Shown here one piece after another: positions 17,861 through 62,674 of a stretch of 64,000 nucleotides of DNA (position 1 is the stretch's first letter; every line of letters begins with the position of its first letter). Source of the stretch: an uncultured Prochlorococcus sp. (GTDB taxonomy: Bacteria > Cyanobacteriota > Cyanobacteriia > PCC-6307 > Cyanobiaceae); assembly GCA_902525585.1 (NCBI GenBank), contig CABZHQ010000001.1:28976-92975 (forward strand). The letters run 5' to 3'. The translations under genes were made by a program, and so were the position numbers. The notes under the pieces are model-generated. The model did no database searches and was not told the DNA's origin. It worked only from the letters and a program-made list of their open reading frames with translations.

Positions 17861-19567
17861 TTATGAAGAACAGCTGTAGTAAGATATTCCTCCATAGTTA
17901 AAATACTGGCTTGGCTTTAGTCGATTATATTTTTGATCTATTTCTGAGGGTTGTTCTATATATGGGTTACTGAAAACATTCTGTAACTCTTTTATTTTTT
18001 TGTAATTTCCTTTTTCAGCTTCTTCATATGCAGGGACGACCATCCATTCGCGCCATGTATAGACTGGATTAAGAGATTTCATCGAGGCCGATTTTGCTTT
18101 GATATATCCCTCTTTCTTCAAGACTGATTGCCAGTTTTCAAGCCATACTCCCCACCTATTATTAAGCTCATCATTAATTGGTAAATAAAAACTGTCTTTT
18201 AAAGAATCTAAGTTATCAGGTATTTCAGAGAGTTTACGGAACAAAATTGTATAGTCTGCTTTTGAAATGACCATGAGATTAAAAAAATCATTTATTAGAG
18301 TTTCGTTGTAATGTTCTAAACCAAGCTTGTTTGCCCACATTTTCATCAATTCCTTATTCATTAATTTGGAAAAGTCCTTTTCGATTTGATCTAACTTTTC
18401 TTGAGCTTGTTTGCTTTCTGAAAGTAACGGACTAAGAGAGGAACAGAATGTTTTAAAGTTAATTGCCGCAGCAGAAGGTTGGTTAAAAAATGAGAAATGT
18501 TCACCTCCACCTGTCCATGGTTGAAATCTTGGATCAAATAATTCACAGAATCCAAAGGGGCCATAATCCAAGGTATAACCTCCAGCAGCACAATTATCAC
18601 TATTGAAGTTACCTTGGCAATAACCAACTCGCATCCAGTTGGCTATTAGTGATATCAATCTAGATCTATATAAACAAGCTAGTTGTGTTACCTTACTTTC
18701 AAGTGAAATTTCATTTTCGATTTCTTCTTTATAGTTTCTATCAATAAGATGTTGAACTATCATCTCTAGTTCACTAAGAGCTTCATCATAAGCATTATTG
18801 CGAACTCGTCTTGCAAAAAGTTCAAGCTGTCCTACACGTAAAAAAGACGGAGCGACTCTTGTAGTAATTGCCGCTTGATTGTCAATCATGATGTCAGGTT
18901 CAAAATACCTGGACCCTTTGGAATACCATGGCCTCCTAACTTTTTCTGATTGTGAGACAAAAAGTGTTAAAGACCTTGAGGTAGGAATTCCCAAGGAATC
19001 CATTAATTCCTGTGCAAGAAATTCTCTAACGCTAGATCTTAAGACAGCCCTACCATCTGCTCCTCGACAGTAGGGAGTTGGACCTCCTCCTTTAAGTTGC
19101 ATCTCCATTCTTTTCCCATTGAATATACCTTCAAAAACAGAAATTGCTCTGCCATCACCATAACCATTGCCAGTACCAAAGGGACATTGTTGAGTATATT
19201 CAGTTCCATAAATTGATAATGCATAACCTGTTGCCCAACCAACAGGACTCATTGGATAATTAGCAACAGAAATATCACCTGAGAAAAAACGACAAAATTT
19301 CTTGTCTTTAGTAAGATCTGAGCTTAGCTTTAGTTCTTTAAAAAGTTTCTTGCTATGGGAAATATATTCTGGTTCTGGAATAGCAGTTGGAACAACTGGT
19401 ACGAAATGACCTGAATATACTGATCGCGGCTTATGATCATTTCCATCTTTTGTTGATTGAGGATCTGCTTTAAGAGAATTCATAAAAGAATAGTCAGATA
19501 GTTGAGAAAATTCAGAAAAATTTTCTGTAAGCTTTCCTTTTAGTGAATCAGATTTGGTTGACATCAA
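17861..19567 (-). CDS. selO: SelO/YdiU family (protein adenylyltransferase)
   Basis: MQLKGGGPTPYCRGADGRAVLRSSVREFLAQE, YCQGNFNSDNCAAGGYTLDYGPFGF. Confidence 0.9.
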   Translation of the reverse strand: MMSTKSDSLKGKLTENFSEFSQLSDYSFMNSLKADPQSTKDGNDHKPRSVYSGHFVPVVPTAIPEPEYISHSKKLFKELKLSSDLTKDKKFCRFFSGDISVANYPMSPVGWATGYALSIYGTEYTQQCPFGTGNGYGDGRAISVFEGIFNGKRMEMQLKGGGPTPYCRGADGRAVLRSSVREFLAQELMDSLGIPTSRSLTLFVSQSEKVRRPWYSKGSRYFEPDIMIDNQAAITTRVAPSFLRVGQLELFARRVRNNAYDEALSELEMIVQHLIDRNYKEEIENEISLESKVTQLACLYRSRLISLIANWMRVGYCQGNFNSDNCAAGGYTLDYGPFGFCELFDPRFQPWTGGGEHFSFFNQPSAAAINFKTFCSSLSPLLSESKQAQEKLDQIEKDFSKLMNKELMKMWANKLGLEHYNETLINDFFNLMVISKADYTILFRKLSEIPDNLDSLKDSFYLPINDELNNRWGVWLENWQSVLKKEGYIKAKSASMKSLNPVYTWREWMVVPAYEEAEKGNYKKIKELQNVFSNPYIEQPSEIDQKYNRLKPSQYFNYGGISYYSCSS

Positions 19568-19836
19568 ATTTGTTATCTATTCTTTTAGGCTCTCTAATTT
19601 CTTTAAATTAAACACCTAAATGTATTTTATATAGATTCTATTAGGGATGGTTTTTGCAGATACGTTTGAGATTTAATATAAGTTAAAAATTTAATACTTA
19701 ATTAAAAACAGGGTCCGCAGTAAGACATTTTTTTTAAGTTTGCTTTAAAGTAACCTGAAAAAGTTTATCAATTTAATTTGTTGGTCGACTTATACCACCC
19801 CCCTTATTTCCGCACTATATTACTTGTGAAAATTTT

Positions 19837-48187: not shown

Positions 48188-48436
48188 TTAAAAATAACTT
48201 CTAAAAATAATGGATTTCTTCCAACCTTTTTTCAATAATTCTGCATATTCTTTTCTTGCAGCTTCAATTGTTTCTACCCTGCTACCTTTCATAACTGGTT
48301 TACTACTTCTTTTATAAACGCAACCATAACTAATCATCATTGCATCAATCCTTTGCGATGGCTTGGAAACATCTTCAAATGGTTCAAAGACTTTAATTCT
48401 TGATCTTTCCTTATTTATAAGAGTAAATTTCTCCAT
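48188..48436 (-). CDS. MEKFTLINK (DUF1651-like) family small protein
   Basis: Strong paralog of 62270-62518; pseudogene copies at 28770 and 52315. Confidence 0.65.
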   Translation of the reverse strand: MEKFTLINKERSRIKVFEPFEDVSKPSQRIDAMMISYGCVYKRSSKPVMKGSRVETIEAARKEYAELLKKGWKKSIIFRSYF

Positions 48437-48630
48437 AAATTAATAATATACAAAAAAGAGGCGACAGAAAACCTTTTGAAAGTTACGCCATAAGTCGGGC
48501 AGAACTAGAACCCTGACTATCTTCTAAAGTTATGCCAGTTATTTTGGAGGAAATTATTTTTGCGTGAATTTTGCGTGAGGCAATTATTTGCGTGAATTAG
48601 TTATTAGCTGAGACTTACTGCTATAACTGA

Positions 48631-48676
48631 TCGGGGCAACAGGATTCGCACCTGAGACCTAGTGCTCCCAAAGCAC
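48631..48676 (-). repeat. tRNA-Pro(TGG) 3'-half remnant c1 (3 mismatches)
   Basis: TCGGGGCAACAGGATTCGCACCTGAGACCTAGTGCTCCCAAAGCAC. Confidence 0.9.
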
Positions 48677-48804
48677 CCGAACAAACAAGGCTATAACTGA
48701 GACTTAATGCTATAGAAGAACTTTTAGAGAAATAAGTATGGACTCATTGGGACTAATATTTTGTATTTTGGACACTTTGTGGGCACATATTCTATTTAGT
48801 TTTT

Positions 48805-48838
48805 AATTGACAGTCGATATAAAATAATGGGCAATTAG
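48805..48838 (+). promoter_or_regulatory. Recurrent promoter module
   Basis: AATTGACAGTCGATATAAAATAATGGGCAATTAG; near-identical at 58247 and 31819. Confidence 0.6.
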
Positions 48839-48848
48839 CTCCTTTCTT

Positions 48849-49232
48849 ATGTCAAGTACTCAAGCCATAGAAAATTTAATTAATGGTTATGCAATAAGTG
48901 AAGATTCTTCTTTTCTAATACCGAATGCAACCGAAGATTTTTTGGCTGTAAGGCCAAGTGGAAATCCAATCTCTGCACAGGGATTAGTGGGAATGTTTGA
49001 TAGTAAAGACTTAGTTGCAGAATCCTCAGAACTAATCAAAACCCACAAAATTGAAATTTACGATGAGATAGCATACGCGGTTTTCACTTTGAATGAAATC
49101 TTTAGTTATAAAGGAAATCAAAATAAAGATCTTTCAACTTACACTTGCATTTTTAAAAATGAAAACGGGACATGGAAATATGCCTGGATGCAAAGATCAC
49201 AAGGAACTACTGATTTGAAAACTTGGGAATAA
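48849..49232 (+). CDS. SnoaL/NTF2-like (DUF3804-like) protein
   Basis: MSSTQAIENLINGYAISEDSSFLIPNATEDFLAVRPSGNPIS...TCIFKNENGTWKYAWMQRSQG. Confidence 0.65.
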   Translation: MSSTQAIENLINGYAISEDSSFLIPNATEDFLAVRPSGNPISAQGLVGMFDSKDLVAESSELIKTHKIEIYDEIAYAVFTLNEIFSYKGNQNKDLSTYTCIFKNENGTWKYAWMQRSQGTTDLKTWE

Positions 49233-49318
49233 ATAAAAAGCTTACTACTTGCATCACAGGATAATTAAGGCTTGGTTATCCTGAATCAATAACACCTTAA
49301 GAAATACCTTTTTGATGA

Positions 49319-49645
49319 ATGTTGAGACTTCTTCCGTTACCGATTTTTATTTGCATTTATCTATTCTCTTGGTGGAGATGTAAAAAAAATATTATCGCTA
49401 GTGATAATCAACTGAAACCTTGCATTGATTGGGCATATATAAAAAATTTACCTCTCCCACCAAAACCTTCATTTGTCGAGTTTTATATTGTTTTTGTCTC
49501 TTCTTTTTTTAAATTTCCCTTTGGGATAATTATTCAAAAACTACCGTTTGGAAAGAAAGTAAGATACTACGAAAGAGAAATGAAATTAATTTTTGATAAA
49601 TGGAATCTAGAAAAAATTAAAAAAAATAATAAACTAATAAACTAA
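49319..49645 (+). CDS. Membrane-associated hypothetical protein
   Basis: ORF track. Confidence 0.4.
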   Translation: MLRLLPLPIFICIYLFSWWRCKKNIIASDNQLKPCIDWAYIKNLPLPPKPSFVEFYIVFVSSFFKFPFGIIIQKLPFGKKVRYYEREMKLIFDKWNLEKIKKNNKLIN

Positions 49646-50015
49646 TAAACTAATTTATTAATATGTTTGGAGTAAAGATATATTAATTTCTAATCATACA
49701 AATATTATTACACCTATTCCCATAACTGTAGTGGGTTGATTGATTATTCCAAAAATTAATTAAAAACCCCATTGATTGGGAAGTTTAAATTTTTTTAGCT
49801 CTATTAGCTCTATTCATTACTTTTCTCAAAATATTATTTTTAATTGATAAATCAGAAATACAATAAAGAGTTAAAAACAAAACTAATTTTGCAAAAAATG
49901 AGATTTGCATAATGAAAATAACCTTACACTAATAAAAGCAAATTTCATTAAAAATGCCAATTTTTTTGAAGACCTTACAATAAGAGGTATTTTAATAATT
50001 GACAGACGATCTAAC

Positions 50016-50040
50016 ATAGAGGGATTAAACCCTCTTTCTT
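50016..50040 (+). terminator. Terminator-like hairpin just before the 50042 ORF
   Basis: AGAGGGattaaACCCTCTTTCTTT; same stem family as 24688. Confidence 0.5.
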
Positions 50041-50041
50041 T

Positions 50042-50302
50042 ATGAATACTTTAATAGTTTCTACTTTTGATTGTTCTTTTGAAGATTTCAATAAATTTGT
50101 AGCAGGTTTCCATGAAAAGGAGGGACATAAATATGTCGAAGAATATGAACTAATCAAGGTAAATGAGCATAAAAGTCACTTAATACTTAAAGTTAGAGAT
50201 TTAGAGGGATTTGCATCTGCTACAAGTACTCCAGAGATGAAAGAGTGGGATAAAGAAAATGGTTATAAAGACATTTGTTATTCTCTCATTCCGGTTGAAT
50301 AA
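50042..50302 (+). CDS. Small hypothetical protein
   Basis: ORF track; follows a TTGACAGACGAT module. Confidence 0.5.
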   Translation: MNTLIVSTFDCSFEDFNKFVAGFHEKEGHKYVEEYELIKVNEHKSHLILKVRDLEGFASATSTPEMKEWDKENGYKDICYSLIPVE

Positions 50303-50394
50303 TATGAAACTCTCAATACTTGCACCGCCAATAGTTAATAATTGACAGCCAACTTAGAGAGAATCGTATAGCATTTATGAAAATAAAATTTTAA

Positions 50395-50760
50395 GTGAAA
50401 AGAAGTTTTTTAATTGGATTGATTGCGGGCATTGCTGGTCTTGCGATTGGTTATAAAGTGCCAAAAGACAAAAATGTTGGTTATGTAATGATTTCTGGCA
50501 GGATTACAAATCCAGAACAAGCAGGTAAATACTTTGAAGCAGTTAATGATGTTGTTGTTAAAGGTTGCGGAGCTAAGACATTATCAGTTGATTTTGAGAC
50601 TGATGTTAGAGAGGGATATGATGGCCCTTTTTCTGTTCTTTCAAAATTTCCAAGTAAACAAGCAGTAATTGATTGTTATGAAGGACCATATCAAAAATTA
50701 ATTCCTTTAAGAGAAGGAGCTATAGAGATGAATTTTAGGATAGTTGAGAGAAATAGATAA
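50395..50760 (+). CDS. DUF1330-like protein with N-terminal TM
   Basis: KNVGYVMISGRITNPEQAGKYFEAV...SKFPSKQAVIDCYEGPYQKLIPLRE; start may be GTG. Confidence 0.65.
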   Translation: MKRSFLIGLIAGIAGLAIGYKVPKDKNVGYVMISGRITNPEQAGKYFEAVNDVVVKGCGAKTLSVDFETDVREGYDGPFSVLSKFPSKQAVIDCYEGPYQKLIPLREGAIEMNFRIVERNR

Positions 50761-50880
50761 GTTTTCCTACTCGTTATATACCTAATAAAGAGTTAGAGTA
50801 GGAACAATGGAAGCATTTGATTGGAGATAACTTCACTAGTTCAAAGCAACTATTTATACCTTCAAAAAAAATTAAAGAAA

Positions 50881-51167
50881 TGACTATTTTTATTGGAAAT
50901 TTATCTTGGGAAACTGAGGTCGAAGATCTTGAACAACTTTTTAGTAATTATGGAGTAGTTAAAAAATGTTATTTACCTCTTGATAGAGAAACAGGAAGAA
51001 AAAGAGGGTTCGCTTTCGTGGATTTAAATGATCATAATTCCGAAAAAAAAGCTATTGATGATCTTCAAGATGTTGAATGGATGGGAAGAGAGATAAGGGT
51101 CAACGAAGCTGAGAAAAGAGACAGACCCAACAATAAAAAATACAATAAATTTAATAGAAATAGTTAG
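50881..51167 (+). CDS. RNA-binding protein, single RRM domain (cyanobacterial Rbp type)
   Basis: MTIFIGNLSWETEVEDLEQLFSNYG (RNP2) and KRGFAFVDL (RNP1). Confidence 0.93.
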
Positions 51168-51589
51168 TTATTATTACTTCGCGATTCTGAAGATTATTAC
51201 TATAAATCAAAAGAAAATTAGAGATTGCTTATTCGTAACTTATAACCATAATTCATCAATTGATTATAAGTTGATTTTATTTGTAAAGAGTTAAGAGAAA
51301 GACGTTACTCCTTATTCTTTTGTAAATAAAAAAACCTTTGTTATCTATATTTTTCTCAATAGACACAAATTCTTTCCCTTTCTCTAGAATTCAAGGTTCT
51401 AATTGGAAATTATCATCTCCTATTTGATAATCTCTTGGATAAATAGGATAAATATCATTAGTTTGATTCTCTAGAGACATATTGAATACCTTACCTTTAC
51501 TAAAAGTACCCTAATACTTTGTGATGGATTTTTTGTGTATCTAGAGAGATTGTTATATGTATATGTTGCACTTGAATGGTTTTAAAGGC

Positions 51590-51780
51590 AAAAAAAAGAC
51601 CCTTGCGAGCCTGGATGATGGGGATTTCTATCATGACAAATTAAAAAGGAACAAACAACCCCATCGATAGGTGATTCTTAATACTTACAAACACCATATA
51701 TAGTGCTAGGATTTTTAAAGAGCTGGGTGATGGGGATTATCAAGCTTTTTTATTTAGGGCGAATCTGTCGCCCTTTTTTT
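51590..51780. ncRNA. RNA locus copy B, inverted relative to copy A (28998-29189)
   Basis: Reverse complement matches copy A over the full length; terminators at both ends (GGGCGaatctgtCGCCC-T7 on +; AGGCTCgcaaGGGTCT-T on -). Confidence 0.7.
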
Positions 51781-52028
51781 GTTTATGAAATTTACTTCTA
51801 AAACCTTAAGTTTGATACTTAATTTGGCTTTTTGTATTTTGGTATTCGTTATTTAGTTACTGCTGTTGTTGGTGCTCTCGACGTTTCATGATTTTGTATT
51901 CTTCATGCAGAGAACCTAAGTGCCAAGCCTCTCTGAATCCTTTTGCACCTTGCATTAGAAGTCTTATATCTGAGGTTGAATGTGACTTCATCTCCAAGAA
52001 CTCTTTCTGCCAAGAAGTTTTATCCAAT

Positions 52029-52157
52029 TTAGTAATCAAATTTTTTCCATTCTTTTTTTCTATCATCCCAGAACTCACCTTGTTTGTCCACATAAGAGAA
52101 AGTTAAATCTTTTACTATCTTTCCAATTTCTTCGTAAAACTTTTCTATTCTTTCCAT
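52029..52157 (-). CDS. Small hypothetical protein (42 aa)
   Basis: MERIEKFYEEIGKIVKDLTFSYVDKQGEFWDDRKKEWKKFDY. Confidence 0.4.
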   Translation of the reverse strand: MERIEKFYEEIGKIVKDLTFSYVDKQGEFWDDRKKEWKKFDY

Positions 52158-52198
52158 AATTATTTTCTTTAGTATTCTTAACTAGAGAGTGTTTTTTT

Positions 52199-52312
52199 AT
52201 GGGATATTTTCACGAGCTTTGGAATAATCAACCAAATGAACTTATCGGTGTAGGCATGTCAATATTCATTTTGTTGGGAATTTACATAGCATTACTCAAT
52301 ACATATAAGTAG
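52199..52312 (+). CDS. Small single-TM protein, 37 aa
   Basis: MGYFHELWNNQPNELIGVGMSIFILLGIYIALLNTYK; paralog of 47613-47756. Confidence 0.55.
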   Translation: MGYFHELWNNQPNELIGVGMSIFILLGIYIALLNTYK

Positions 52313-52314
52313 TA

Positions 52315-52564
52315 ATGGAAAAATTTACTCTTACTAAATAAGGATAGATCGAGGATAAAAGTATTTGAACCATTTGAAGATGTATCGAAGCCTAGTCCTA
52401 GTATTGATGCAATGATGATTTCCTATGGTTGTGTTTATAAGAGAAGTAGTAAACCAGTTATGAAAGGAAACAGAGTTGAAACTATCGAAGCAGCTCGGAA
52501 GGAATACAAACAACTACTGGACGAGGGGTGGAAGAAAACAAGTATCTTCAGGAGCCATTTGTAG
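52315..52564 (+). pseudogene. MEKFTL (DUF1651-like) copy with early frameshift
   Basis: MEKFTLTK* then NKDRSRIKVFEPFEDVSKPSPSIDAMMISYGCVYKRSSKPVMKGNRVETIEAARKEYKQLLDEGWKKTSIFRSHL in a shifted frame. Confidence 0.8.
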
Positions 52565-52592
52565 GCACTAAATACATCAAAGCACATCCTAT

Positions 52593-52613
52593 GAGCTCCC
52601 CCTACAGCTCCCC
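52593..52613. repeat. Arm-type repeat pair, AGCTCCCC class, left of c2
   Basis: AGCTCCCCCTACAGCTCCCC (12-bp period). Confidence 0.65.
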
Positions 52614-52686
52614 ATTCTCAATTTGAGACAGTAAACAATAAAAAAGCGAGTTGGGAGACTCGATATTATGACTTGGTTTTTAAGAG

Positions 52687-52732
52687 TCGGGATGACAGGA
52701 TTCGAACCTGCGACCTATTGCTCCCAAAGCAC
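52687..52732 (-). repeat. tRNA-Pro(TGG) 3'-half remnant c2 (3 mismatches)
   Basis: TCGGGATGACAGGATTCGAACCTGCGACCTATTGCTCCCAAAGCAC. Confidence 0.93.
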
Positions 52733-52841
52733 CCGCCCTCCAATTTGAGACACTTACCTAAATAAACAAGTGGTGCAATGGCAAGATAAATGGGATATCA
52801 GAGGATTGGTGAGTCTCAAAAACAGGTCAAAGGTATACGAA

Positions 52842-52882
52842 ATATCCATAAATATACAAATCCTCGCCCGTTTGTCGCCCGC
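52842..52882. repeat. Arm-type repeat pair, TCGCCCG/CCTCGC class, right of c2
   Basis: ATCCATAAATATACAAATCCTCGCCCGTTTGTCGCCCGC; matches the left-of-c3 sequence. Confidence 0.75.
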
Positions 52883-53269
52883 TTACTACCTAGTACTTTA
52901 TGAACCAATTTTTTATTAAATAATGCAATAAGGATTACTGAAGGATTTACTACAAAATAATCTATTGCGATTAAATTTTTTTACTGATTTTGAATAGATA
53001 TTAGCTGTAAGGATCGCTCCAAAATTTACTAAAACTACAATCAAGAGAAGTAACTCCATAACGAGGTTGGTCATAAGATTTACCTCCTTAAACTTATATG
53101 GAAACTCTATAACGACTTTGTAAGTATTGAATAGAGTTTAAATTCTTATTTTTGGGAGTCTAAATCTTTCTTAGTTAGTTGTTTTTTTTCCCTTAGCGAT
53201 CATTACTACTGGTACTAAGAGATAAGTAAAGAAAGAGATTAAGAAAATGTCTATGTTCATGGCTTTTTA

Positions 53270-53497
53270 CTATAAATTTTTTAAATCTTGTTCTATTTTT
53301 TCAAGTTTTTTGTATAGTTCTGTTTTCTCCTTCAATAGAGCTTTTTTCTTTAACTGAAGTTCTTTGTTAAATGGAGAATTGAAGTACTTTTTGTAAGCTA
53401 GAAAAAATACAGCTAGTGCTACAACAATCCCGATCGCGCCAATTATGAGTATGGGCGAAGATGGAAAATCGTAGAATGGTATAGAGAGTAAAAGCAT
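53270..53497 (-). CDS. Small TM plus coiled-coil protein
   Basis: One TM then KKKALLKEKTELYKKLEKIEQDLKNL; abuts hli. Confidence 0.5.
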   Translation of the reverse strand: MLLLSIPFYDFPSSPILIIGAIGIVVALAVFFLAYKKYFNSPFNKELQLKKKALLKEKTELYKKLEKIEQDLKNL

Positions 53498-53758
53498 TTA
53501 AACGAAACCAGGAATTATTTGGCCTGTTGTTAAGTAAGCTCCAATAGCAGCAATTAATCCAAGCATTGCGAATCTGCCATTAAGCGTTTCTGCTACAACC
53601 TTTTCTTTTTCGATTGTTTTTACTTTAGGGTTTGAATTTGTCATTGGATTTGAAGTTAGATAGTTTAAATTTTCGTCTTGAAATTGCTTTGTTAAATAAG
53701 CAACGAGGATAGCTGTTAAGGATACGATTACAGCTAAAAAGCCTGAAAGAGAAGACAT
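53498..53758 (-). CDS. hli: HLIP with extra N-terminal TM (start MSSLSGF)
   Basis: Near-identical in layout and length to 14380-14640. Confidence 0.9.
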   Translation of the reverse strand: MSSLSGFLAVIVSLTAILVAYLTKQFQDENLNYLTSNPMTNSNPKVKTIEKEKVVAETLNGRFAMLGLIAAIGAYLTTGQIIPGFV

Positions 53759-53967
53759 TAAAAAATACCTGGAATTATCTGACCTGTAGTTACATAAGCT
53801 CCCAAAAGTGCAACTAAACCAATCATTGCCCAACGTCCATTAACTTTTTCTGCGTTTTGAGGATATCCATCATAAGAAACAGATTGATCAACATAAGGAC
53901 GAGGCTCAGTTGGAAAAATATTTTGCCTTCCGCCTGATTCCGTAGTTATGTATGAAGAATTAGTCAT
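53758..53967 (-). CDS. hli: High-light-inducible protein
   Basis: NAEKVNGRWAMIGLVALLGAYVTTGQIIPGIF; paralog of 14640-14846. Confidence 0.9.
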   Translation of the reverse strand: MTNSSYITTESGGRQNIFPTEPRPYVDQSVSYDGYPQNAEKVNGRWAMIGLVALLGAYVTTGQIIPGIF

Positions 53968-54185
53968 TAGTTTAAGAATTTAATTTGTTAACAAACGTAA
54001 CATTCTTATTAACTAATGTAAAGAAAAAGGTTAAAAATATGTGTAATTCGGTACTTTTAAAGCAACATTGATACAGATCCGTAACAGTTATTAATTTATT
54101 TTTAAAGTTAAAGCTAATAATTAAAAGATCATGGAGATATGAAAAAACTTCCCCGGATTTGTTTTTGATTGATCAAAATTAAATA

Positions 54186-54335
54186 ATGACTGATCCTATT
54201 CTCTACTTATCGATGATCCTTGGGTTGGGAGGCGTTTATGTCTTGATTGCCTCTTTCAATGATGACGATGATGACAGCAATGATGATGGAGAAAAATATT
54301 TTTTTAATCTCGAGTATGCAGAGGCGGGAAAATAG
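54186..54335 (+). CDS. Small TM protein with acidic DDDDDSNDD stretch, 49 aa
   Basis: MTDPILYLSMILGLGGVYVLIASFNDDDDDSNDDGEKYFFNLEYAEAGK; not in the ORF track. Confidence 0.5.
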   Translation: MTDPILYLSMILGLGGVYVLIASFNDDDDDSNDDGEKYFFNLEYAEAGK

Positions 54336-54461
54336 TTTAATAAGTCCAGCTTATAGTGGGTATGAGAGTAAGTAATTATACTCACACTTGCAATTTTCAA
54401 TTATTAGATTTGTTTAAAGATTGCATTAAGAAGCGTCTTAGCTAAACAACCAACCAAACAA

Positions 54462-54596
54462 ATGAACGAAACAAAAACAGTTGAGAAGGAAAAAATCGTA
54501 GCTGAGAAGCTTAACGGTAGGTTTGCAATGATCGGCTTTATTGCCCTTATTGGTGCATATCTAACAACAGGACAAATTATTCCAGGGTTTGTATAA
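54462..54596 (+). CDS. hli: High-light-inducible protein, 44 aa
   Basis: MNETKTVEKEKIVAEKLNGRFAMIGFIALIGAYLTTGQIIPGFV; the ORF track shows only a spurious antisense ORF. Confidence 0.9.
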   Translation: MNETKTVEKEKIVAEKLNGRFAMIGFIALIGAYLTTGQIIPGFV

Positions 54597-54704
54597 ATGG
54601 ATTTTATATTTAAAAGACAAGGATATGTACCAATCAAGGTGGTTCCTTATATATTCTTTGTTGCAGTTGTTTTAAGCATCGCAACAACAACTACATTCGT
54701 ATAG
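54597..54704 (+). CDS. 35-aa single-TM protein directly adjoining hli
   Basis: MDFIFKRQGYVPIKVVPYIFFVAVVLSIATTTTFV; starts at the base after the hli stop. Confidence 0.55.
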   Translation: MDFIFKRQGYVPIKVVPYIFFVAVVLSIATTTTFV

Positions 54705-54728
54705 TTTTTAAAACTTGCATTGTCATGA

Positions 54729-54764
54729 AAGTCAGCTGGTAGGGAATACGAGCTGACTTTTTTA
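54729..54764 (+). terminator. Rho-independent terminator of the hli operon
   Basis: AAGTCAGCTggtagggaatacgAGCTGACTTTTTT. Confidence 0.85.
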
Positions 54765-54796
54765 ATTGGTATTGCCGGCGACACACCCTCCAAAGT

Positions 54797-54835
54797 TATC
54801 CAAAGATATACAAATCCTCGCACATTCCTCGCCTG
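54797..54835. repeat. Arm-type repeat pair, CCTCGC class, left of c3
   Basis: ATCCAAAGATATACAAATCCTCGCACATTCCTCGCCTGC. Confidence 0.75.
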
Positions 54836-54908
54836 CAGAGATTTTAAGATAAACGAGAAATAAATAAGCGAATGGGGGACTCGCTATTATGAATTGGTTT
54901 TTAAATTG

Positions 54909-54954
54909 TCGGGGCGACAGGATTCGAACCTGCGACCTAGTGCTCCCAAAGCAC
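54909..54954 (-). repeat. tRNA-Pro(TGG) 3'-half remnant c3 (perfect)
   Basis: TCGGGGCGACAGGATTCGAACCTGCGACCTAGTGCTCCCAAAGCAC. Confidence 0.95.
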
Positions 54955-55042
54955 TTAACAACCCTAGTTGGGCACTATGTCTACAGACCATGACTAAATA
55001 GTTGCAGGTTTTTACAGGATTTGACATCACAAACTAGGGTAT

Positions 55043-55064
55043 ATTTGTTGGCGATTTGTTGGCG
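55043..55064. repeat. Arm-type repeat pair, ATTTGTTGGCN class, right of c3
   Basis: ATTTGTTGGCG ATTTGTTGGCG (11-bp period). Confidence 0.8.
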
Positions 55065-55077
55065 ATAAATATTACTT

Positions 55078-56418
55078 CTAGGAAGTAAAAAATAAAATAA
55101 AAGGTGAAACAATAGCGAAAAATATAAAACTAAAACGATAAAATTTGTCAAAAGATAGTCCGAAATATTTCTTTGAAAACCTTTCTATCCTATTTCTAGA
55201 ATCAACTATTATGAGGGCATTTGCTAATTGAAGGATAGCTAGCAAGTAACTTAAGAAATAAAGTTTATCCATATAGGTGATATAGGATAATTGAGGAATT
55301 TCACTTTGATAGCCATTTTGCATAAAGATGAAAGTAAGCAAAACTGTTGGGGGAGTAGCAACTTTAATATCTTTGAATTTATTAGATAAATTTTCGGTAA
55401 GGATCAGGACTGATACTCCTGCGATTAAAGGCAATATATATCTGAAAAAACTTGATGAGCCTGACCTTACAAAATAAGATTCTAAAACTGCAACAGGATA
55501 GTAATCTATTTTTTTAGTTGCTTCAAAAAATTCTTTCGAAATAATATTATTATCTACATCCTGATCTTGCACATTATATCCAGGCTTCAATTCATTGTAT
55601 ATGCATCCATATTCTTTATAAACTTGATCTTTTTCGTAAAAATCATCTATATAACACTGTTTATCTTGATGAATAAAAGCTTCAAATCTAAATCTATCTT
55701 CCAAAACATTTCCTGAAGCATCAAGAAAAAAATGTATTTTAGTGGCCGGTAAAAGACTTGTTAGCTCAATCCTTAATTTTGAATTGTCAAATGGAAATCT
55801 TCTCAAATCTCTATCCAATCTAAATCTTCCAGAGAATTTGTACAAAGATGTTTTTGCATCAGATGAATTATCTAAAGTAACTTTCTCATATATTTGATCT
55901 TCCGAATCATAAAAATTTAAATATAAGGAAGAAAGTACATCTTTCTTAGATTTATCTAGCAACTCTTGATCAGGCATATGCTCATCAAGAGGAACAACCC
56001 CTTCATCAGTCCATGATGCTCTTATAAATCCACTTGCATAAATACTTGAAGTTTTTTCATCAAAGTCAAATAGATTGTTAATCTTTATAGTTATGTATGT
56101 ATCATCTGGGATTTGATATTCTGAAAAATTTTCCTCTCCCTTTTCAAATTGATCTTTAAATTCATTAAAGAATTTATTTCTATAGTTACTGACTTTTTGT
56201 TTTAGTAGCCCATCTTCATAAAAGTTTAGAGTTTCTATAGATCTGGAATATTCACTCTGGGTTATAGGTATTGTTGATTGTTGAACATATTCGTTAATAC
56301 TAAAAAAAGTGGTTAAACCAAAAATAAAAAATATAAATAGAGTTAGAGTAAGAGAAATACCAAAAATCTTTTTTTGTTGATTTAACTTTTTAAAAATATT
56401 CTTTTTAACTTTTTTCAT
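55078..56418 (-). CDS. Pentameric ligand-gated ion channel (Cys-loop receptor)-like protein with an extra N-terminal TM
   Basis: ASGFIRASWTDEGV, RRFPFDNSKLRIELTS, FRYILPLIAGVSVLI, PTVLLTFIFMQNGYQSEIPQLSYITYMDKLYFLSYLL, 4 C-terminal TMs. Confidence 0.65.
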   Translation of the reverse strand: MKKVKKNIFKKLNQQKKIFGISLTLTLFIFFIFGLTTFFSINEYVQQSTIPITQSEYSRSIETLNFYEDGLLKQKVSNYRNKFFNEFKDQFEKGEENFSEYQIPDDTYITIKINNLFDFDEKTSSIYASGFIRASWTDEGVVPLDEHMPDQELLDKSKKDVLSSLYLNFYDSEDQIYEKVTLDNSSDAKTSLYKFSGRFRLDRDLRRFPFDNSKLRIELTSLLPATKIHFFLDASGNVLEDRFRFEAFIHQDKQCYIDDFYEKDQVYKEYGCIYNELKPGYNVQDQDVDNNIISKEFFEATKKIDYYPVAVLESYFVRSGSSSFFRYILPLIAGVSVLILTENLSNKFKDIKVATPPTVLLTFIFMQNGYQSEIPQLSYITYMDKLYFLSYLLAILQLANALIIVDSRNRIERFSKKYFGLSFDKFYRFSFIFFAIVSPFILFFTS

Positions 56419-56424
56419 ATATGT

Positions 56425-57459
56425 TTATGTAGAGACATTAGATATCAAATTAATTGCATTAGATAGGATAATCTTTCTCTCTTTTTTTTCGTAGTTGATA
56501 TATTCATCTGAATAGGACAAAGCGTATTTTGAAAAAGAATTAAATATATCTCTGCTAACTGGAGAGGTTTTATGAAGCTTAAAAAGTCTCCAACTCCATT
56601 TATATCTTGCTAGGAGGTGATAAATAGGATTAGATAGTACCTTCAAAGTTTGTAATTGAGGTTTTTCTAACAAATTTTGATCATGAATTTCAAATATAAA
56701 AAAATTTAAATAATTTATATCTCTTATGACTGAGAAACCAATTAAAGTTATAAATAGAGCAATGGATAAAGCTCTAGTTATTGCATATGAAATATTTCCT
56801 AAATAATTAATAGCTGCAATACTATTTGAAGATTCGAAGGAAGAGAATACACTTGAAAGATTGTTGAAAAAATGTAATCCAATAGCGATTAAAACAAAAA
56901 AGAGAAAATTAAGTTTGATTTTGGTTGACTTTTTGTAGAACCATAATCCAACGCCAGACCAAGCAGTGAAAAGTGCATGCATATAACCACTTTCAATAAC
57001 TCTTCCAGTTAGCTGCATGTTCCAATAATAAGTAATGTCATTCTCATAGCCTAATGTTCCCCATAAATAAATAATATTTTCAATAAATTGAAAACCTGCT
57101 GCAACTAAACAGCTATAAACAACGAAATCTGTTAATGAATGAAATTCTTTCTTGAAAGTTTTAAAAACAAAAAACAATCCTATAAATTTATAAATTTCTT
57201 CTTTTATTGGAGCGTCAATAATTGTCCCAAAAACTTCATTTAAATTCGGGTCGAGATCTAAAGTATTAATAATATAGTTCCCTATCGAAAAAGGAAAAAT
57301 TAATATTGCTATGGCTGAAGCAATTCCCCAAGCAAATGCTGCGATAATTGGTTTTAGTGGCTCCCTTTCAATTGCATCAAGAAAACGTATGGAGTAAATA
57401 ATTGAAAGACTGCTTAAAGTTGCAAATATTGGACTTGCTAAAAATATAAATAATTCCAT
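56425..57459 (-). CDS. PrsW-like intramembrane metalloprotease
   Basis: APIKEEIYKF (EExxK), AGFQFIENIIYLWG, GYMHALFTAWSGVGLW (HxxxT), polytopic. Confidence 0.8.
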   Translation of the reverse strand: MELFIFLASPIFATLSSLSIIYSIRFLDAIEREPLKPIIAAFAWGIASAIAILIFPFSIGNYIINTLDLDPNLNEVFGTIIDAPIKEEIYKFIGLFFVFKTFKKEFHSLTDFVVYSCLVAAGFQFIENIIYLWGTLGYENDITYYWNMQLTGRVIESGYMHALFTAWSGVGLWFYKKSTKIKLNFLFFVLIAIGLHFFNNLSSVFSSFESSNSIAAINYLGNISYAITRALSIALFITLIGFSVIRDINYLNFFIFEIHDQNLLEKPQLQTLKVLSNPIYHLLARYKWSWRLFKLHKTSPVSRDIFNSFSKYALSYSDEYINYEKKERKIILSNAINLISNVST

Positions 57460-57557
57460 TAATTCAAAATATTTTCTAAATTAATAAACCTAAATATGGG
57501 TTTCTGCAATTGTTTGTTTGCTGGCCAATATTTATTTAAGGATTATTTTTAATGCTT

Positions 57558-57872
57558 CTACTCTGATACTTCTATTTTGAGTGCTTTGATTTTTAAATCT
57601 CCATAATTTTTTGCTTTAACAATTCCGGCTTTTGCCAAAAAAGGAGTTGCAATGAAGGCAAAAGGAGTAGCCTTTTCCTCAGGAGTAAACAAGCCAATTA
57701 TAAAAGCTCCGAAAAATACAAATAAAGCAGGAGTAATTGTTCTTCTTGAGGCAGCATAGTAAATCCATACAAAAGGGATAATATGAGCTACTGCATAACC
57801 CCAGCCTTTATCTTTTTGTCTGACTTCCCATGATTCCTCTTTACTTATTAAATTTGGTTTAGGAATTACCAT
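57558..57872 (-). CDS. Small two-TM hypothetical protein
   Basis: ORF track; cargo of the same cassette. Confidence 0.5.
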   Translation of the reverse strand: MVIPKPNLISKEESWEVRQKDKGWGYAVAHIIPFVWIYYAASRRTITPALFVFFGAFIIGLFTPEEKATPFAFIATPFLAKAGIVKAKNYGDLKIKALKIEVSE

Positions 57873-57914
57873 ACTAAAATTGAATAAATTTTTTGTAAGT
57901 TTAACTTAAACATA

Positions 57915-57952
57915 ATTTGTTGGCTATTTGTTGGCTGCTATGAGCCAACAAG
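57915..57952. repeat. Arm-type repeats, ATTTGTTGGCT class, left of c4 (two direct plus one inverted)
   Basis: ATTTGTTGGCT ATTTGTTGGCT gctatg AGCCAACA. Confidence 0.8.
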
Positions 57953-58011
57953 TAAAAGCAATAAAAAAGCGAGTCTGGGTAACTCGCTAGTATGACTTGG
58001 TTTTTAAATGG

Positions 58012-58057
58012 TCGGGGCGACAGGATTCGAACCTGCGACCTAGTGCTCCCAAAGCAC
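58012..58057 (-). repeat. tRNA-Pro(TGG) 3'-half remnant c4 (perfect)
   Basis: Identical to c3/c5 over 46 bp. Confidence 0.95.
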
Positions 58058-58183
58058 TTGTATGTAACTTTGAGAAAAATATAAGAATGTAGATTGTAAC
58101 TATACTTTTCTTTGTTGTTGGAACGTATTTGAGTCTCAAAATTATGCGTTGCGATCGCAAAAAATAGCATACGATTGTCGCCT

Positions 58184-58207
58184 AGCTCCCCCTTTAGCTC
58201 CCCCCTT
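58184..58207. repeat. Arm-type repeat pair, AGCTCCCCC class, right of c4
   Basis: AGCTCCCCCTTT AGCTCCCCCC. Confidence 0.75.
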
Positions 58208-58246
58208 TACAACCTAGTGCCTTCTTGTAGTTATCAAACTGAAAAT

Positions 58247-58280
58247 AATTGACAGTCGATATAAAATAAGGGGCAATTAG
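58247..58280 (+). promoter_or_regulatory. Recurrent promoter module
   Basis: AATTGACAGTCGATATAAAATAAGGGGCAATTAG. Confidence 0.6.
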
Positions 58281-58290
58281 CCTTTTTTTT

Positions 58291-58860
58291 ATGACTAAAA
58301 AGTGGAAACAATCTGAATTAAATAGAATCTACAGAGATAATCCAGAATTAAAGAAAGCCCCCTTAGTGGGTGTAGATGTAATAGTTGTTGAATTTTTAAA
58401 ATTACATGATGTAGAAGCAAGACCACCTAAAAATACAAGCAAGAGAGATGGAGCTATTGCTGGAGCTATTACTGGTGCATTTGGTGCTGATGTAGGAGGA
58501 GATGCTTTTTTAATACAAGGACAAAAAACACAAACCCAACAGCAAGAATGGACATCATGGAAACAATGGGCTTTAAGTCATAAAGATTTCCCAGAATATA
58601 AAGCCAAGTTTAATGGTGAAGCAGAAGCAAAAAATAAGGAAATTGATAAGACATTGGCTGACCCTGCTTTTATAGAAAAATGGGAGGCTTATTTTAAAGA
58701 AGCTCGTGATAAAGAATTTGTGAAAAAACAAAAAGCTATGAAAGGAAGAGCCTATGCGTTGATAGCATTATTCGTAATTATTGGAACGTTGATTGGTATT
58801 GGAAACTCACCAGAAGCCCAAAAGTTTTTAAATATCGAAGGTAGTGAATATAAAAAATAA
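58291..58860 (+). CDS. Hypothetical protein with Gly/Ala-rich hydrophobic segment and C-terminal TM
   Basis: GAIAGAITGAFGADVGGDAF; YALIALFVIIGTLIGIG near the C-terminus. Confidence 0.6.
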   Translation: MTKKWKQSELNRIYRDNPELKKAPLVGVDVIVVEFLKLHDVEARPPKNTSKRDGAIAGAITGAFGADVGGDAFLIQGQKTQTQQQEWTSWKQWALSHKDFPEYKAKFNGEAEAKNKEIDKTLADPAFIEKWEAYFKEARDKEFVKKQKAMKGRAYALIALFVIIGTLIGIGNSPEAQKFLNIEGSEYKK

Positions 58861-58866
58861 TAATTA

Positions 58867-59649
58867 ATGAAACGCTTACTACTCCCACTACTAGCTGCTC
58901 TTGCTTTACCTACTGCTGTTAATGCAAATATAGATCCTAAAGTTGCTGAAATATGCATGAAGGCTGTTGACTTTCAAGGTTGCGTAAAAGCAATGGGAGG
59001 TGAATCAAGTGAACCAGTTAGAACGACAGTTGTCTCTGACAAACAAAATGATCTGCTTTTAGAAATAAAAAAGCTACCTTCAAGAATACAAAATACTTCA
59101 CTTAAAGATTACTCATCAAGAACATTATCTTTTACAGATGCTTTAGCAGTGAGTACTCCTGAAGAGGTTGGAGAAACTCTTTATTCAAATGCAAAAAAGA
59201 TTTCATTAGCTTTAGACGTCTTATATGAAACTTGGAATAGAAATAATGATGTTGTCGTTTACAACGGTTATTGGCTACCAGAGAAAAATTTAAAAGCAAA
59301 AAATAATTTAGATAGAATATTCGGAGGGAATACAATAGAAATTAAATGTACAAAAAGATTCTTTGGCTTGTTAGGGGGTGGCAATAGAAGAATCGGAGAA
59401 AATATCTTAAACCCAGTAGCTAGGGTTGTTGCAAATGCAGCTAATCAGGTTAAAACAGCTAATGATCAGATCATTTTCCCCTCACAACAGGAACCCTCTT
59501 TTGTAACAAGTTCAGCTCCTTTCTTTTGTCCTGGCGATCCAAATGCACCAGTTGAAGAAAAAAAACCAAAAGAAGATGATAAACCAAGACAACCAGTAAA
59601 AATTAATTGTGATTCTCCTGTTTGGAAAAAGAAGCCTATCTGTAATTAA
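58867..59649 (+). CDS. Secreted hypothetical protein
   Basis: MKRLLLPLLAALALPTAVNA signal peptide; 6 bp after the previous gene. Confidence 0.6.
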   Translation: MKRLLLPLLAALALPTAVNANIDPKVAEICMKAVDFQGCVKAMGGESSEPVRTTVVSDKQNDLLLEIKKLPSRIQNTSLKDYSSRTLSFTDALAVSTPEEVGETLYSNAKKISLALDVLYETWNRNNDVVVYNGYWLPEKNLKAKNNLDRIFGGNTIEIKCTKRFFGLLGGGNRRIGENILNPVARVVANAANQVKTANDQIIFPSQQEPSFVTSSAPFFCPGDPNAPVEEKKPKEDDKPRQPVKINCDSPVWKKKPICN

Positions 59650-59670
59650 TGAAATGCTTACTACTTGCAC

Positions 59671-59763
59671 ATGAATAGATTAATAAAAGTAGCTATTGAA
59701 TTTCAAGAAGAAAGAATTAATGCTTTGGAAGGTAGAAGGATTATTGATGTAGAAGCTAATTAA
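59671..59763 (+). CDS. Tiny ORF (30 aa)
   Basis: MNRLIKVAIEFQEERINALEGRRIIDVEAN. Confidence 0.3.
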   Translation: MNRLIKVAIEFQEERINALEGRRIIDVEAN

Positions 59764-59795
59764 AACTACTCTATATATAAGGTATTAATCTTGAT

Positions 59796-60284
59796 ATGGG
59801 ATTACTTTCAAGAATTTTTGGTAAAGGCAAAGAAGATAAACAAGAACCACCAAAACAAACTTATCAACAATGGGAAAGGGAAAAGGTAGAAGAATATCAC
59901 GAGAATAATAAAACTTGGGGTGAGACTTGGAAGGAGATTGCTAGTAATGAGTTAAATGGAATGACATTAGTAAATGGAAAGAACACACATGAAGTATTAG
60001 ATGACCCTGCTGCTAAGAATGATTTATCAACAATGCTTGCTTGTTGTAGGGCAGAACTAGAAAGGGCAGATATAGGAGAAGCTCCCCCTGCTCCTTACTA
60101 TTTCAAAAGGGCTGCAATATTATTTGGGAAACAAAAAGAGTACGATAACGAAATTAAAATCTGTGAATTGTATTGTGATGCTTCAAAAAAATTTGGTGGA
60201 AATGGCAGAACTGATATACAGGAAAGAATACAGAAAGCATTATTAAAAAAAGATAGGGCAGCTAAGAAGGCACTAGAAAAGTAA
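59796..60284 (+). CDS. Hypothetical protein
   Basis: MGLLSRIFGKGKEDKQEPPKQTYQQWEREK...KEYDNEIKICELYCDASKKFG. Confidence 0.6.
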   Translation: MGLLSRIFGKGKEDKQEPPKQTYQQWEREKVEEYHENNKTWGETWKEIASNELNGMTLVNGKNTHEVLDDPAAKNDLSTMLACCRAELERADIGEAPPAPYYFKRAAILFGKQKEYDNEIKICELYCDASKKFGGNGRTDIQERIQKALLKKDRAAKKALEK

Positions 60285-60309
60285 TCCACGACCGCAACAA
60301 CTGTTTCCT

Positions 60310-60330
60310 AGCTCCCCCTCTAGCTCCCCT
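60310..60330. repeat. Arm-type repeat pair, AGCTCCCCC class, left of c5
   Basis: AGCTCCCCCTCT AGCTCCCC. Confidence 0.75.
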
Positions 60331-60380
60331 TTCGCAAAATGAGACAAGCTATATTATTTATAATCCGTTGGTATGACTGA

Positions 60381-60426
60381 TCGGGGCGACAGGATTCGAA
60401 CCTGCGACCTAGTGCTCCCAAAGCAC
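60381..60426 (-). repeat. tRNA-Pro(TGG) 3'-half remnant c5 (perfect), integrase-proximal att core
   Basis: TCGGGGCGACAGGATTCGAACCTGCGACCTAGTGCTCCCAAAGCAC. Confidence 0.95.
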
Positions 60427-60498
60427 TTCCCACCCCATTGCAAGCACTAGTGTTTTGAGCTATATCTGGATTCTTGCGTGATGTTGCGTATTTTGTCA

Positions 60499-60536
60499 GG
60501 ACAAACTATACTGAATTTGTCCACTATTTGTCCACT
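60499..60536. repeat. Arm-type repeats, ATTTGTCCACT class, right of c5 (one inverted plus two direct)
   Basis: GGACAAA ... ATTTGTCCACT ATTTGTCCACT, ending just before the integrase ATG. Confidence 0.8.
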
Positions 60537-60541: not shown

Positions 60542-61804
60542 ATGATTGCTAGAGACAGGCAAAAAGTTTTTCAAGTTCAGGTTAAAGACTTAATGATGGG
60601 TCTTACAGCTAACGAAAGAAGGGGAAAAGTACAACTTAAATTAAGAAGAACAGGGGAGAAACAACAATCAGTAATGCTTCCATTTGATTGGTCTCCTAAA
60701 TTTTTTGATGATGCTTATACAAGAATTAGGAATATTTATACTTTTATTGTTGAAGGACATAGCTTAAAAGCTGCTGCTGAATTAGCTCAAGGTAAAGCAC
60801 CAAAGAAGGGTCAGGATTGGAGCGATATGTTAACTAAATTTGAAAATTATAAAAAAACTTTTGGAAGAACAGTAAACGATCTTACTTGGACTAAAGACTT
60901 TAAAGCCTGCTACATGGCTGTTGATGTAATGGCTGCAAAGAACCCACCAAGCGACCCAATAACATTAATGGAAATGTGTTTGAAGGATTGGAAACCCGCT
61001 TCAAGAACAAGAGAAAAGAGGGCTCAGGCTTTAAGTAGTTTCCTTACTTACTGTGTTGAAAGATGTAACCTTCCAGAAACTTGGACTCCACCCGCAAAGT
61101 TAAAAACATTAATTGGAGAAATTAAGAAAGGGGAAGAACCTAATAAGATCGCAGGCGACCCATTCGATAATGACCAACAAATATTAGACCTATTGGCATC
61201 ATTACCAACTGATGACCAAGACAAGAAGGTTAGTAAAGCTGCTGCTCAATGGTTCAATGCTCTTTGCTTAATGGCTGAACTAGGTTTACGACCTATTGAA
61301 GTTGGGAAAATGATTATTAAATATGACCCAGTAATGAAAAAAGATCGTTGGTTTTGTACCCATGAAAAGAAGGGTGGTAATGGTAGAACTGACCCAAGAT
61401 TTGTAAAACCATTTCCCCTAATTGATTTAGATGGAAACTTAGTAAATTGGAATTTATTTGATAGGTTCAAAGCGGGTTTATTACCTTTGCCAGAAAATAT
61501 AAGTGGAGAGTCTTTTGGAAAGTATTTAATCAGAAGAAAGCACTATGTAGAGCTAAAAGCTGCCATGAAAAAAGAAGGCAAAAATTTAGTTAATTATAGT
61601 TTTAGACATTATTATTCTTTGCGTTCACACCAAGCAAATATCCCAGTTGGAGAAGTTTGTTTAAGTATGGGGCATAGTTATGAGAGTCACGTTAGAGCTT
61701 ATCCATACGCAAAGGCTTCTAGTGTAGATTCCGCATTTGATGAGGGGATTGAAAGGTTACTTGCAAGAGTAAAAGCTAAAAAATTATTGGAGGAAAAAGA
61801 ATGA
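60542..61804 (+). CDS. int: Tyrosine recombinase / integrase
   Basis: ALCLMAELGLRPIEVGKM (first Arg box), NYSFRHYYSLRSHQANIPVGEVCLSMGHSYESHVRAYPYA (RHxxxS...H...Y). Confidence 0.88.
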   Translation: MIARDRQKVFQVQVKDLMMGLTANERRGKVQLKLRRTGEKQQSVMLPFDWSPKFFDDAYTRIRNIYTFIVEGHSLKAAAELAQGKAPKKGQDWSDMLTKFENYKKTFGRTVNDLTWTKDFKACYMAVDVMAAKNPPSDPITLMEMCLKDWKPASRTREKRAQALSSFLTYCVERCNLPETWTPPAKLKTLIGEIKKGEEPNKIAGDPFDNDQQILDLLASLPTDDQDKKVSKAAAQWFNALCLMAELGLRPIEVGKMIIKYDPVMKKDRWFCTHEKKGGNGRTDPRFVKPFPLIDLDGNLVNWNLFDRFKAGLLPLPENISGESFGKYLIRRKHYVELKAAMKKEGKNLVNYSFRHYYSLRSHQANIPVGEVCLSMGHSYESHVRAYPYAKASSVDSAFDEGIERLLARVKAKKLLEEKE

Positions 61805-61986: not shown

Positions 61987-62273
61987 TTATGAATTGCAAT
62001 CCAATACCAGAAAGAGAAGATTGGTTCATTACTGATAGGAAACCAACTATTTGCCCCAGATGCGGTACTAAGGAAGTTAGAAAAGCTGTTCTTGGTTATC
62101 CAACCGAAGAAGATTTCCATAATGACAATATTTATTTAATTGGCTGTATTCCAGACTTTCCTATTGATAGGACTTGGGGCTGTAGGCAATGTGATGCGGG
62201 ATTCTGGAAAGATACTCCAAGAAATAAAGCTGCATTAGGTGGATTAGTTCCCCATCAATGGCCTAAAGATTAA
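61980..62273 (+). CDS. Zinc-ribbon-like small protein (start may be the Met at 61989)
   Basis: CPRCGTKEVRK...WGCRQCDAGFW. Confidence 0.6.
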   Translation: MVIMNCNPIPEREDWFITDRKPTICPRCGTKEVRKAVLGYPTEEDFHNDNIYLIGCIPDFPIDRTWGCRQCDAGFWKDTPRNKAALGGLVPHQWPKD

Positions 62274-62518
62274 AAATAACTTCTAAAAATACTGGTCTTT
62301 TTCCAACCTTCTTTCAATAGTTCTGCATATTCTTTTCTAGCTGCTTCAATAGTTTCTACTCTGCTACCTTTCATAACTGGTTTACTACTTCTCTTATAAA
62401 CACACCCATAGGAAATCATCATTGCGTCAATACTTGGGGAAGGCTTGGAAACATCTTCAAATGGTTCAAAGACTTTAATTCTTGACCTATCTTTATTTAT
62501 TAAAGTGAACTTCTCCAT
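62270..62518 (-). CDS. MEKFTLINK (DUF1651-like) family small protein (start MEKFT, shorter than the ORF track)
   Basis: Paralog of 48188-48436; convergent overlap with the zinc-ribbon ORF. Confidence 0.65.
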   Translation of the reverse strand: MEKFTLINKDRSRIKVFEPFEDVSKPSPSIDAMMISYGCVYKRSSKPVMKGSRVETIEAARKEYAELLKEGWKKTSIFRSYF

Positions 62519-62674
62519 AAAAAAATTATAGACAAAAAAAGAGGGGTAAAGCTGCACCAAAACCCCCTAAGTAAACACACCTTAAATTAATGGCAGACTA
62601 AGAAGTGACCACACTTTTATGATAGCTTAAATATTATTTTTGTAGTATAATTTCTAATAATTAAGTATTAATTA

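Follow-up and report, generated by a model that had tools for sequence, protein, structure and literature searches.

Short tandem repeats stand beside the tRNA remnants that separate stacked cassettes in an uncultured Prochlorococcus sp., and their sequence is matched between the two ends of the same cassette. The stretch analysed (hereafter the window) comprises 64,000 nucleotides at the right end of contig CABZHQ010000001.1 (positions 28976-92975 of 92975), from a genome that is 76% complete and 1.3 Mb in size. It contains five cores, each the 3' half of tRNA-Pro(TGG) on the minus strand, and a tyrosine recombinase gene at position 60542, the product of which is called here the 60542 integrase. 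We consider it highly probable that lambda-like tyrosine integrases acting on one shared core use the repeats as arm-type sites, with the N-terminal domain of the enzyme selecting the element ends and with cargo moved in trans. The repeats probably act as address labels, by which a cassette lacking an integrase could often be matched to the enzyme that moves it.

Matching repeats at the cassette ends in the window

The cores, arm repeats and integrase gene are arranged as follows (window positions):

48556-48596, plus strand: right-end arms of the element left of c1, TTTTGCGTGA, three copies
48637-48676, minus strand: core c1, 3' half of tRNA-Pro(TGG) in decayed form, with 3 mismatches to the 40-mer core
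48765-48786, plus strand: left-end arms of c1-c2, ATTTTGGACAC TTTGTGGGCAC, +88 register, unlike its own right end
52594-52613, plus strand: right-end arms left of c2, AGCTCCCCCTAC AGCTCCCC
52693-52732, minus strand: core c2, 2 mismatches to the 40-mer core
52861-52882, plus strand: left-end arms of c2-c3, TCCTCGCCCG TTTGTCGCCCG
54815-54836, plus strand: right-end arms of c2-c3, TCCTCGCACAT TCCTCGCCTG
54915-54954, minus strand: core c3, exact
55043-55064, plus strand: left-end arms of c3-c4, ATTTGTTGGCG twice, matching the arms of integrases L184 and L185 at 19/19
57915-57936, plus strand: right-end arms of c3-c4, ATTTGTTGGCT twice
57943-57950, minus strand: core-proximal inverted copy left of c4, AGCCAACA
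58018-58057, minus strand: core c4, exact
58184-58203, plus strand: left-end arms of c4-c5, 12-bp AGCTCCCC class, +125 register
60310-60329, plus strand: right-end arms of c4-c5, AGCTCCCC class
60387-60426, minus strand: core c5, exact, marking the left boundary of the newest element
60484-60512, plus strand: candidate int promoter (TTGCGT, 17 bp, TATACT), by consensus only, abutting the arm repeats
60499-60505, minus strand: core-proximal inverted copy beside c5, GGACAAA
60515-60536, plus strand: left-end arms of the newest element, ATTTGTCCACT twice, +88 register, between the predicted -10 box and the int start codon
60542-61804, plus strand: tyrosine recombinase, 420 a.a., with an N-terminal beta-sheet/helix domain (residues 1-70) followed by core-binding and catalytic parts

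The original prediction had reported paired 11-12 bp repeats beside the cores, and each sequence that it quoted was recovered at its coordinate. Its further claim, that the repeats match between the two ends of the same cassette, holds for c2-c3, c3-c4 and c4-c5 but not for c1-c2, a mismatch that it did not mention: the left end of c1-c2 carries TTTTGGACAC/TTTGTGGGCAC and the right end AGCTCCCC. No degenerate core was found inside c1-c2 (best score 12; shuffles reach 12). The best own-end 22-mer match was 20/22 in c3-c4 and 21/22 in c4-c5, against a re-paired background mean of 14.8 (standard deviation of the mean 0.09), and the match of c2-c3 extends past the 11-bp unit into the adjoining extra sequence ATACAAAT. 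The TTTTGCGTGA triplicate on the left side of c1 comes from an older element. Arm sequences named in this analysis include ATTTGTTGGC, alongside AGCTCCCC.

Core-proximal inverted copies of the repeat, also proposed for both kinds of end, are present as AGCCAACA and GGACAAA; in the survey described below they showed a real tendency at right ends (40% vs 11% in shuffled sequences), but a weak one at left ends (13% vs 7%). A second repeat pair, TTGCGTG/TTGCGTA, lies at 60474-60490 between the core and the arms. Its equivalents in relatives recur across arm classes, and other relatives have CTGTC pairs in its place; it is possibly an accessory-factor site.

The contig stops at the window end, and the right end of the newest element lies beyond it. 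Neither an intact tRNA-Pro nor a ATTTGTCCACT right end was found elsewhere in this 76%-complete genome. In relatives, an intact tRNA-Pro(TGG) in the same orientation lies downstream of the integrase, and core arrays adjoin an intact tRNA-Pro in dozens of genomes, the layout of a tRNA-bounded element with a partial tRNA duplicate.

End matching is general in tRNA-Pro arrays

The survey was based on 400 genomes of the family, 253 of which contain relatives of the 60542 integrase, and used 80 integrase neighbourhoods and 60 tRNA-Pro arrays of the same genus. Cores were located by a Hamming scan, which also catches degenerate copies; arrays held up to ~10 cassettes per 20 kb. As the null for end matching, ends were re-paired between cassettes in 2000 permutations, with reversed, reverse-complement and same-array neighbour comparisons as further controls.

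Over 216 cassettes, the best own-end 22-mer match averaged 17.9, compared with 14.8 after re-pairing (maximum 15.1 in the permutations), and a match of at least 19/22 was reached by 49% of own-end pairs vs 0.65% of same-array neighbours, which is the background level. When similar cassettes were collapsed to 180 distinct ones and compared by 20-mers, the own-end mean was 17.1/20 vs 14.0 permuted (standard deviation 0.086); at least 17/20 was reached by 66% of own-end pairs vs 3.6% of other-cassette pairs, and the reversed and reverse-complement controls remained at background. Clear tandem pairs were present at both ends in 55 cassettes, and 49 of these share the unit, vs 5.8 expected by random pairing. 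The matching repeats stand at discrete distances from the core (left +88/+100/+125; right -100/-79/-56), the right registers being spaced about two helical turns apart, and such fixed distances fit protein sites rather than chance repeats. The pattern seen in c2-c5 thus generalises to this type of array.

Matching repeats flank a single core on viral contigs

A core DNA search found the exact core in nine IMG/VR contigs, whereas a query of IMG/VR contigs with the integrase protein gave no match; a tblastn search of phages also gave none. In two of the nine contigs (L213 and L215) the core belongs to an intact tRNA-Pro gene, and a third (L218) is truncated at the core, leaving six usable sites (L214, L216, L217, L219, L220 and L221). 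In 6/6, the same repeat flanked the single core on both sides, 17-20/20 identical and in the usual registers, and an integrase relative, 45-51% identical to known members, lay just right of the core. The L214 site reads CTAGGATACAA twice, core, CTAGGATACAT twice. With arms on both sides of one core, the six sites match the form predicted for an unintegrated phage attachment site (attP). A minor tail protein is encoded on both L214 and L220, together with a terminase large subunit on L214 and a sigma factor on L220; some carriers apparently resemble tailed temperate phages of picocyanobacteria that use the same tRNA-Pro site.

Repeat class follows the integrase, most strongly its N-terminal domain

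The 60542 integrase carries the tyrosine recombinase catalytic set (R, K, R, H, Y): among 48 relatives R250, K276 and R355 are invariant and H378 and Y387 nearly so, with Tyr352 at the histidine of HxxR. A Pfam search gave no integrase family match and a PDB sequence search no match, whereas a Foldseek search with the full-length model matched the Tn1549 and lambda integrases bound to DNA. In the AlphaFold 2 model (predicted local distance difference test score 92.6; N domain mostly >95), the N-terminal residues form a helix (2-15), three strands (21-26, 29-34 and 42-49) and a second helix (52-70), suggesting a separate domain of the arm-binding type, a three-stranded sheet plus helix. The arm-binding domains of lambda and Tn916 integrases have the same sheet-plus-helix layout, in which the sheet contacts DNA.

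Upstream of nearly all integrases of this family, a tRNA-Pro core stands at a distance of ~110-260 bp, and a tandem 11-bp pair occupies part of the interval; the distance from the core to the start of the pair is 87-90 bp in the commonest class. L075, L096, L099, L105, L106 and L117 depart from this layout: here the integrase directly adjoins an intact tRNA-Pro, and ~194 bp separate the arm pair from the core. Distant relatives (L115, L118, L120 and L119) stand at tRNA-Arg(TCT) or tRNA-Thr(CGT), with a tandem pair TGCTCTCA upstream.

The share of integrase pairs with at least 10/11 of the repeat in common was 93% at integrase identities of at least 90%, and fell to 65%, 12%, 3% and 1% with divergence. 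Among 59 non-redundant integrases, the Mantel correlation between repeat and integrase was 0.34, and the largest permuted value 0.23. The predicted covariation of repeat class with integrase clade across genomes was thus borne out, and the lack of correlation that was to count against it did not occur. With 85 integrases, the N-terminal 60 residues retained a partial correlation of 0.35 after correction for the catalytic part (permuted maximum 0.13), and the catalytic part 0.09 after correction for the N domain (permuted maximum 0.16). In the 49 integrases of the +88 class, a residue scan placed the peaks at residues 21-27 and 28-35 (partial 0.36 and 0.31), with no signal at residues 2-9, which are encoded closest to the repeats; some independent association also persists for the rest of the protein (0.21 after correction for the N domain). 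Residues 21-35 correspond to beta-strands 1 and 2 of the sheet in the AlphaFold model. The repeat class thus follows the integrase, most strongly these two strands of the lambda-like arm-binding domain.

Natural chimeras agree with a role of the N domain in setting the repeat class, with the caveat of linkage discussed below. L048 and L189 are 98% identical in the catalytic part and 42% in the N domain, and their arms differ (TTTTGACGGAA and ATTTGTCCGCA, respectively). L188 combines the catalytic part of L185 (100%) with the N domain of L183 (85%) and has the TCGGC repeat of L183. Conversely, identical arms are found in L045/L050 (N domain 83%, catalytic part 54%) and in L104/L108 (77% and 49%).

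Assignment of integrase-less cassettes to integrases

An integrase-like open reading frame (ORF) was present in only 14/201 array cassettes. The other 187 have a median length of 1.9 kb, and 113/152 distinct ones have retained their attachment sites, with ends matching at 16/20 or better. That such cassettes could be assigned to a cognate recombinase, as had been proposed, proved correct for 45 of the 102 distinct integrase-less cassettes with matched ends, which match the repeats of a known integrase at 17/19 or better, vs 0.3 expected from unit-scrambled controls. For the classes ATTTGTCGGCA, ATTTGTCCGCA and TTTTGGGTGCG, which at first had near matches only, later-found integrases gave closer cognates.

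In the window, the c3-c4 arms are identical to those of two integrases of the same genus (L184 and L185), the closest integrase arms to c4-c5 are those of L134 (16-17/19, a tentative assignment), and no integrase among those surveyed has arms matching c2-c3. The ATTTGTCCACT class of the newest element recurs in integrase-less cassettes of L127, L142, L144, L148, L151, L152 and L172; in the L142 cassette (18706-19713, oriented), the right-end pair directly adjoins an intact tRNA-Pro.

One 4.3-kb integrase-less cassette occurs, ~98% identical, in four arrays at different array positions, and the left neighbours of its copies have no detectable mutual similarity. In L161 (15532-19743) and L138 (3058-7433, both oriented), the same 3.83-kb cargo, 95% identical, is framed by different end modules, arm classes and registers, indicating that both ends were replaced around the cargo and that cargo can change labels.

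Proposed mechanism and alternative explanations

The original reading of the repeats as arm-type recombinase sites, with a specificity that differs per element and a shared tRNA core, is supported by the end matching, the attP form and the covariation. In the circular form, the order would be right arms, core, left arms and, where present, int. Integration at the tRNA would split this site, placing the left arms beside the tRNA remnant and the right arms beside the regenerated tRNA, and each new insertion would push older elements outward to give an array of remnants. The catalytic part of the integrase would handle the shared core, and the N-terminal domain would read the element's own repeat and thereby select which element ends synapse; from the sequence relationships, we infer that the integrase physically binds the arm repeats. 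Cargo cassettes without an integrase, whether by loss or from the outset, would keep both arm sets and could be mobilised in trans by the integrase of another element, namely any with a matching N-terminal domain. We also lean towards a wider view, in which one tRNA hosts many orthogonal recombination channels set by the arm repeat and not by the core, integrase N domains and end modules are both exchanged, so that cargo can switch its cognate enzyme, and a large integrase-less pool lives off few integrases, including those of temperate cyanophages.

Several points weigh against the arm-site interpretation. One third of the cassettes have no own-end match; no cognate was found among the surveyed integrases for the TCCTCGCC, AATAATCGCT and AATCTCGCTC classes; and the swap between L185 and L188 alters the arm by one base only. 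Moreover, the int 5' end, the left arms and, in the circle, the right arms are linked, so the N domain and the arms could travel in one exchange tract even if function did not require it. Linked exchange contributes, but the peak at the strands, like the coordinated change of both ends, argues that it is not the whole cause. The unmatched cassettes have more decayed cores (3.7 vs 0.9 mismatches, p = 2e-11), and only 3/39 carry two different clear repeat classes. That unmatched third, together with the old age of some cassettes, would also suit matched ends being functionless relics of common descent or chance matches in AT-rich DNA. We rejected this explanation as having next to no chance of being right: the permutation, reversed, reverse-complement and neighbour controls were all at background, apart from the repeat the left and right ends have little in common and their registers differ, the mismatched cassettes are mostly decayed ones, and the end matching in 180 distinct cassettes and the attP sites contradict it.

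Alternatively, the repeats might be bound by an accessory factor, either a recombination directionality factor or a host bender, with their class tracking the integrase by linkage only. The int 5' end and the arms are adjacent in the circle, and class-independent pairs between core and arms, such as that at 60474-60490, would suit such a factor. However, the association peaks at strands 1-2 of the N domain, is absent at residues 2-9 and is lower in the rest of the protein, and four separate sites change together while the end scaffolds stay recognisable, making this alternative quite improbable. The location of the arms near the int promoter raises the further question of whether the repeats beside int are operators only, at which a repressor or the integrase shuts the promoter without any role in recombination. 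Many members have a -10-like box on one side of the arm pair and the int start on the other; TA..WT was seen at the arm position in 78% of integrase-bearing vs 38% of integrase-less left ends (Fisher p = 0.0004), and autorepression through overlap of the attachment site and promoter is documented for intS of KplE1 (PMC2951348). By analogy with KplE1, autorepression of int via the overlapping arms is likely here as well, but the same repeats can serve as operators and as arms. The same repeat recurs at the other element end, kilobases from any int promoter, at both ends of integrase-less cassettes and, in attP, to either side of the core. The operator-only explanation was therefore rejected as very improbable.

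Cargo in the window

The cargo of c2-c3 (52733-54914) includes small ORFs that resemble, as judged by eye, high-light-inducible proteins, and that of c3-c4 (54955-58017) a PrsW-family protease. A small protein (MEKFTLINKERSRIKVFEPFEDVSKPS...) is encoded in three copies, at 48188-48436 (minus strand) near c1, ~52353-52564 (plus strand) near c2, and 62270-62560 (minus strand) inside the newest element. A Pfam search with the 48188-48436 copy gave no match; the protein may be read as recurrent cargo or an element gene.

Relation to known systems and implications

Tycheposons, attributed to Hackl et al. 2023, are reportedly tRNA-bounded cargo elements of Prochlorococcus with a tyrosine recombinase and partial tRNA remnants. 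The arrays described here share the tRNA-bounded cargo, the partial remnants and, in the newest element but not in most cassettes, the recombinase (PMC10872708, in the portions compared). Those portions gave no description of an arm-repeat code, of integrase-less assignment or of N-domain chimeras, the original study by Hackl et al. lying outside the comparison. As in the lambda, Tn916/Tn1549 and KplE1 systems, a core is accompanied by separate arm-type repeats on both sides and the enzyme has an N-terminal beta-sheet domain; the fold matches lambda and Tn1549 integrases, and the overlap of the int promoter with the attachment site (PMC2951348) has a counterpart in the candidate promoter. The arrays differ from these systems in having many arm classes for a single core at one tRNA, arms in the form of tandem 11-12 bp pairs at a few fixed registers, and no integrase in most elements.

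Integrase-less islands stacked at one tRNA or tmRNA gene with retained attachment sites are also described, in the portions of the reports compared, for tandems of integrative and conjugative or mobilizable elements in Streptococcus (PMC5704250) and for ssrA islands in Dehalococcoides (PMC3146451). In such cis-mobilizable elements (CIMEs) and accretion arrays, mobilisation is thought to need the help of related or adjacent elements. Most cassettes here likewise have no integrase gene and retain their attachment sites, but the Dehalococcoides islands use a serine recombinase, and element-specific arm classes naming the cognate enzyme were not found in those portions. The siphovirus P-SS2 has its attP at tRNA-Met of MIT9313, a cyanophage integrase beside a tRNA-derived attP and repeated tRNA remnants in the host, unlike the tRNA-Pro used here; no arm repeats were found described in the compared part of that report (PMC2784084). 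Within these sources, the components are known separately, namely lambda-type arm sites, tRNA-bounded tycheposons and integrase-less CIMEs in accretion arrays, and no description was found of an element-specific arm code at a shared core, the main tycheposon study again lying outside the comparison.

For the movement of integrase-less islands in streamlined picocyanobacteria, a readable arm label would predict a partner for each cassette, testable with one integrase and one mini-element. The natural chimeras of N and catalytic domains provide ready material for testing what encodes arm specificity, and element boundaries and decay in tRNA arrays can be called precisely from matched arms.

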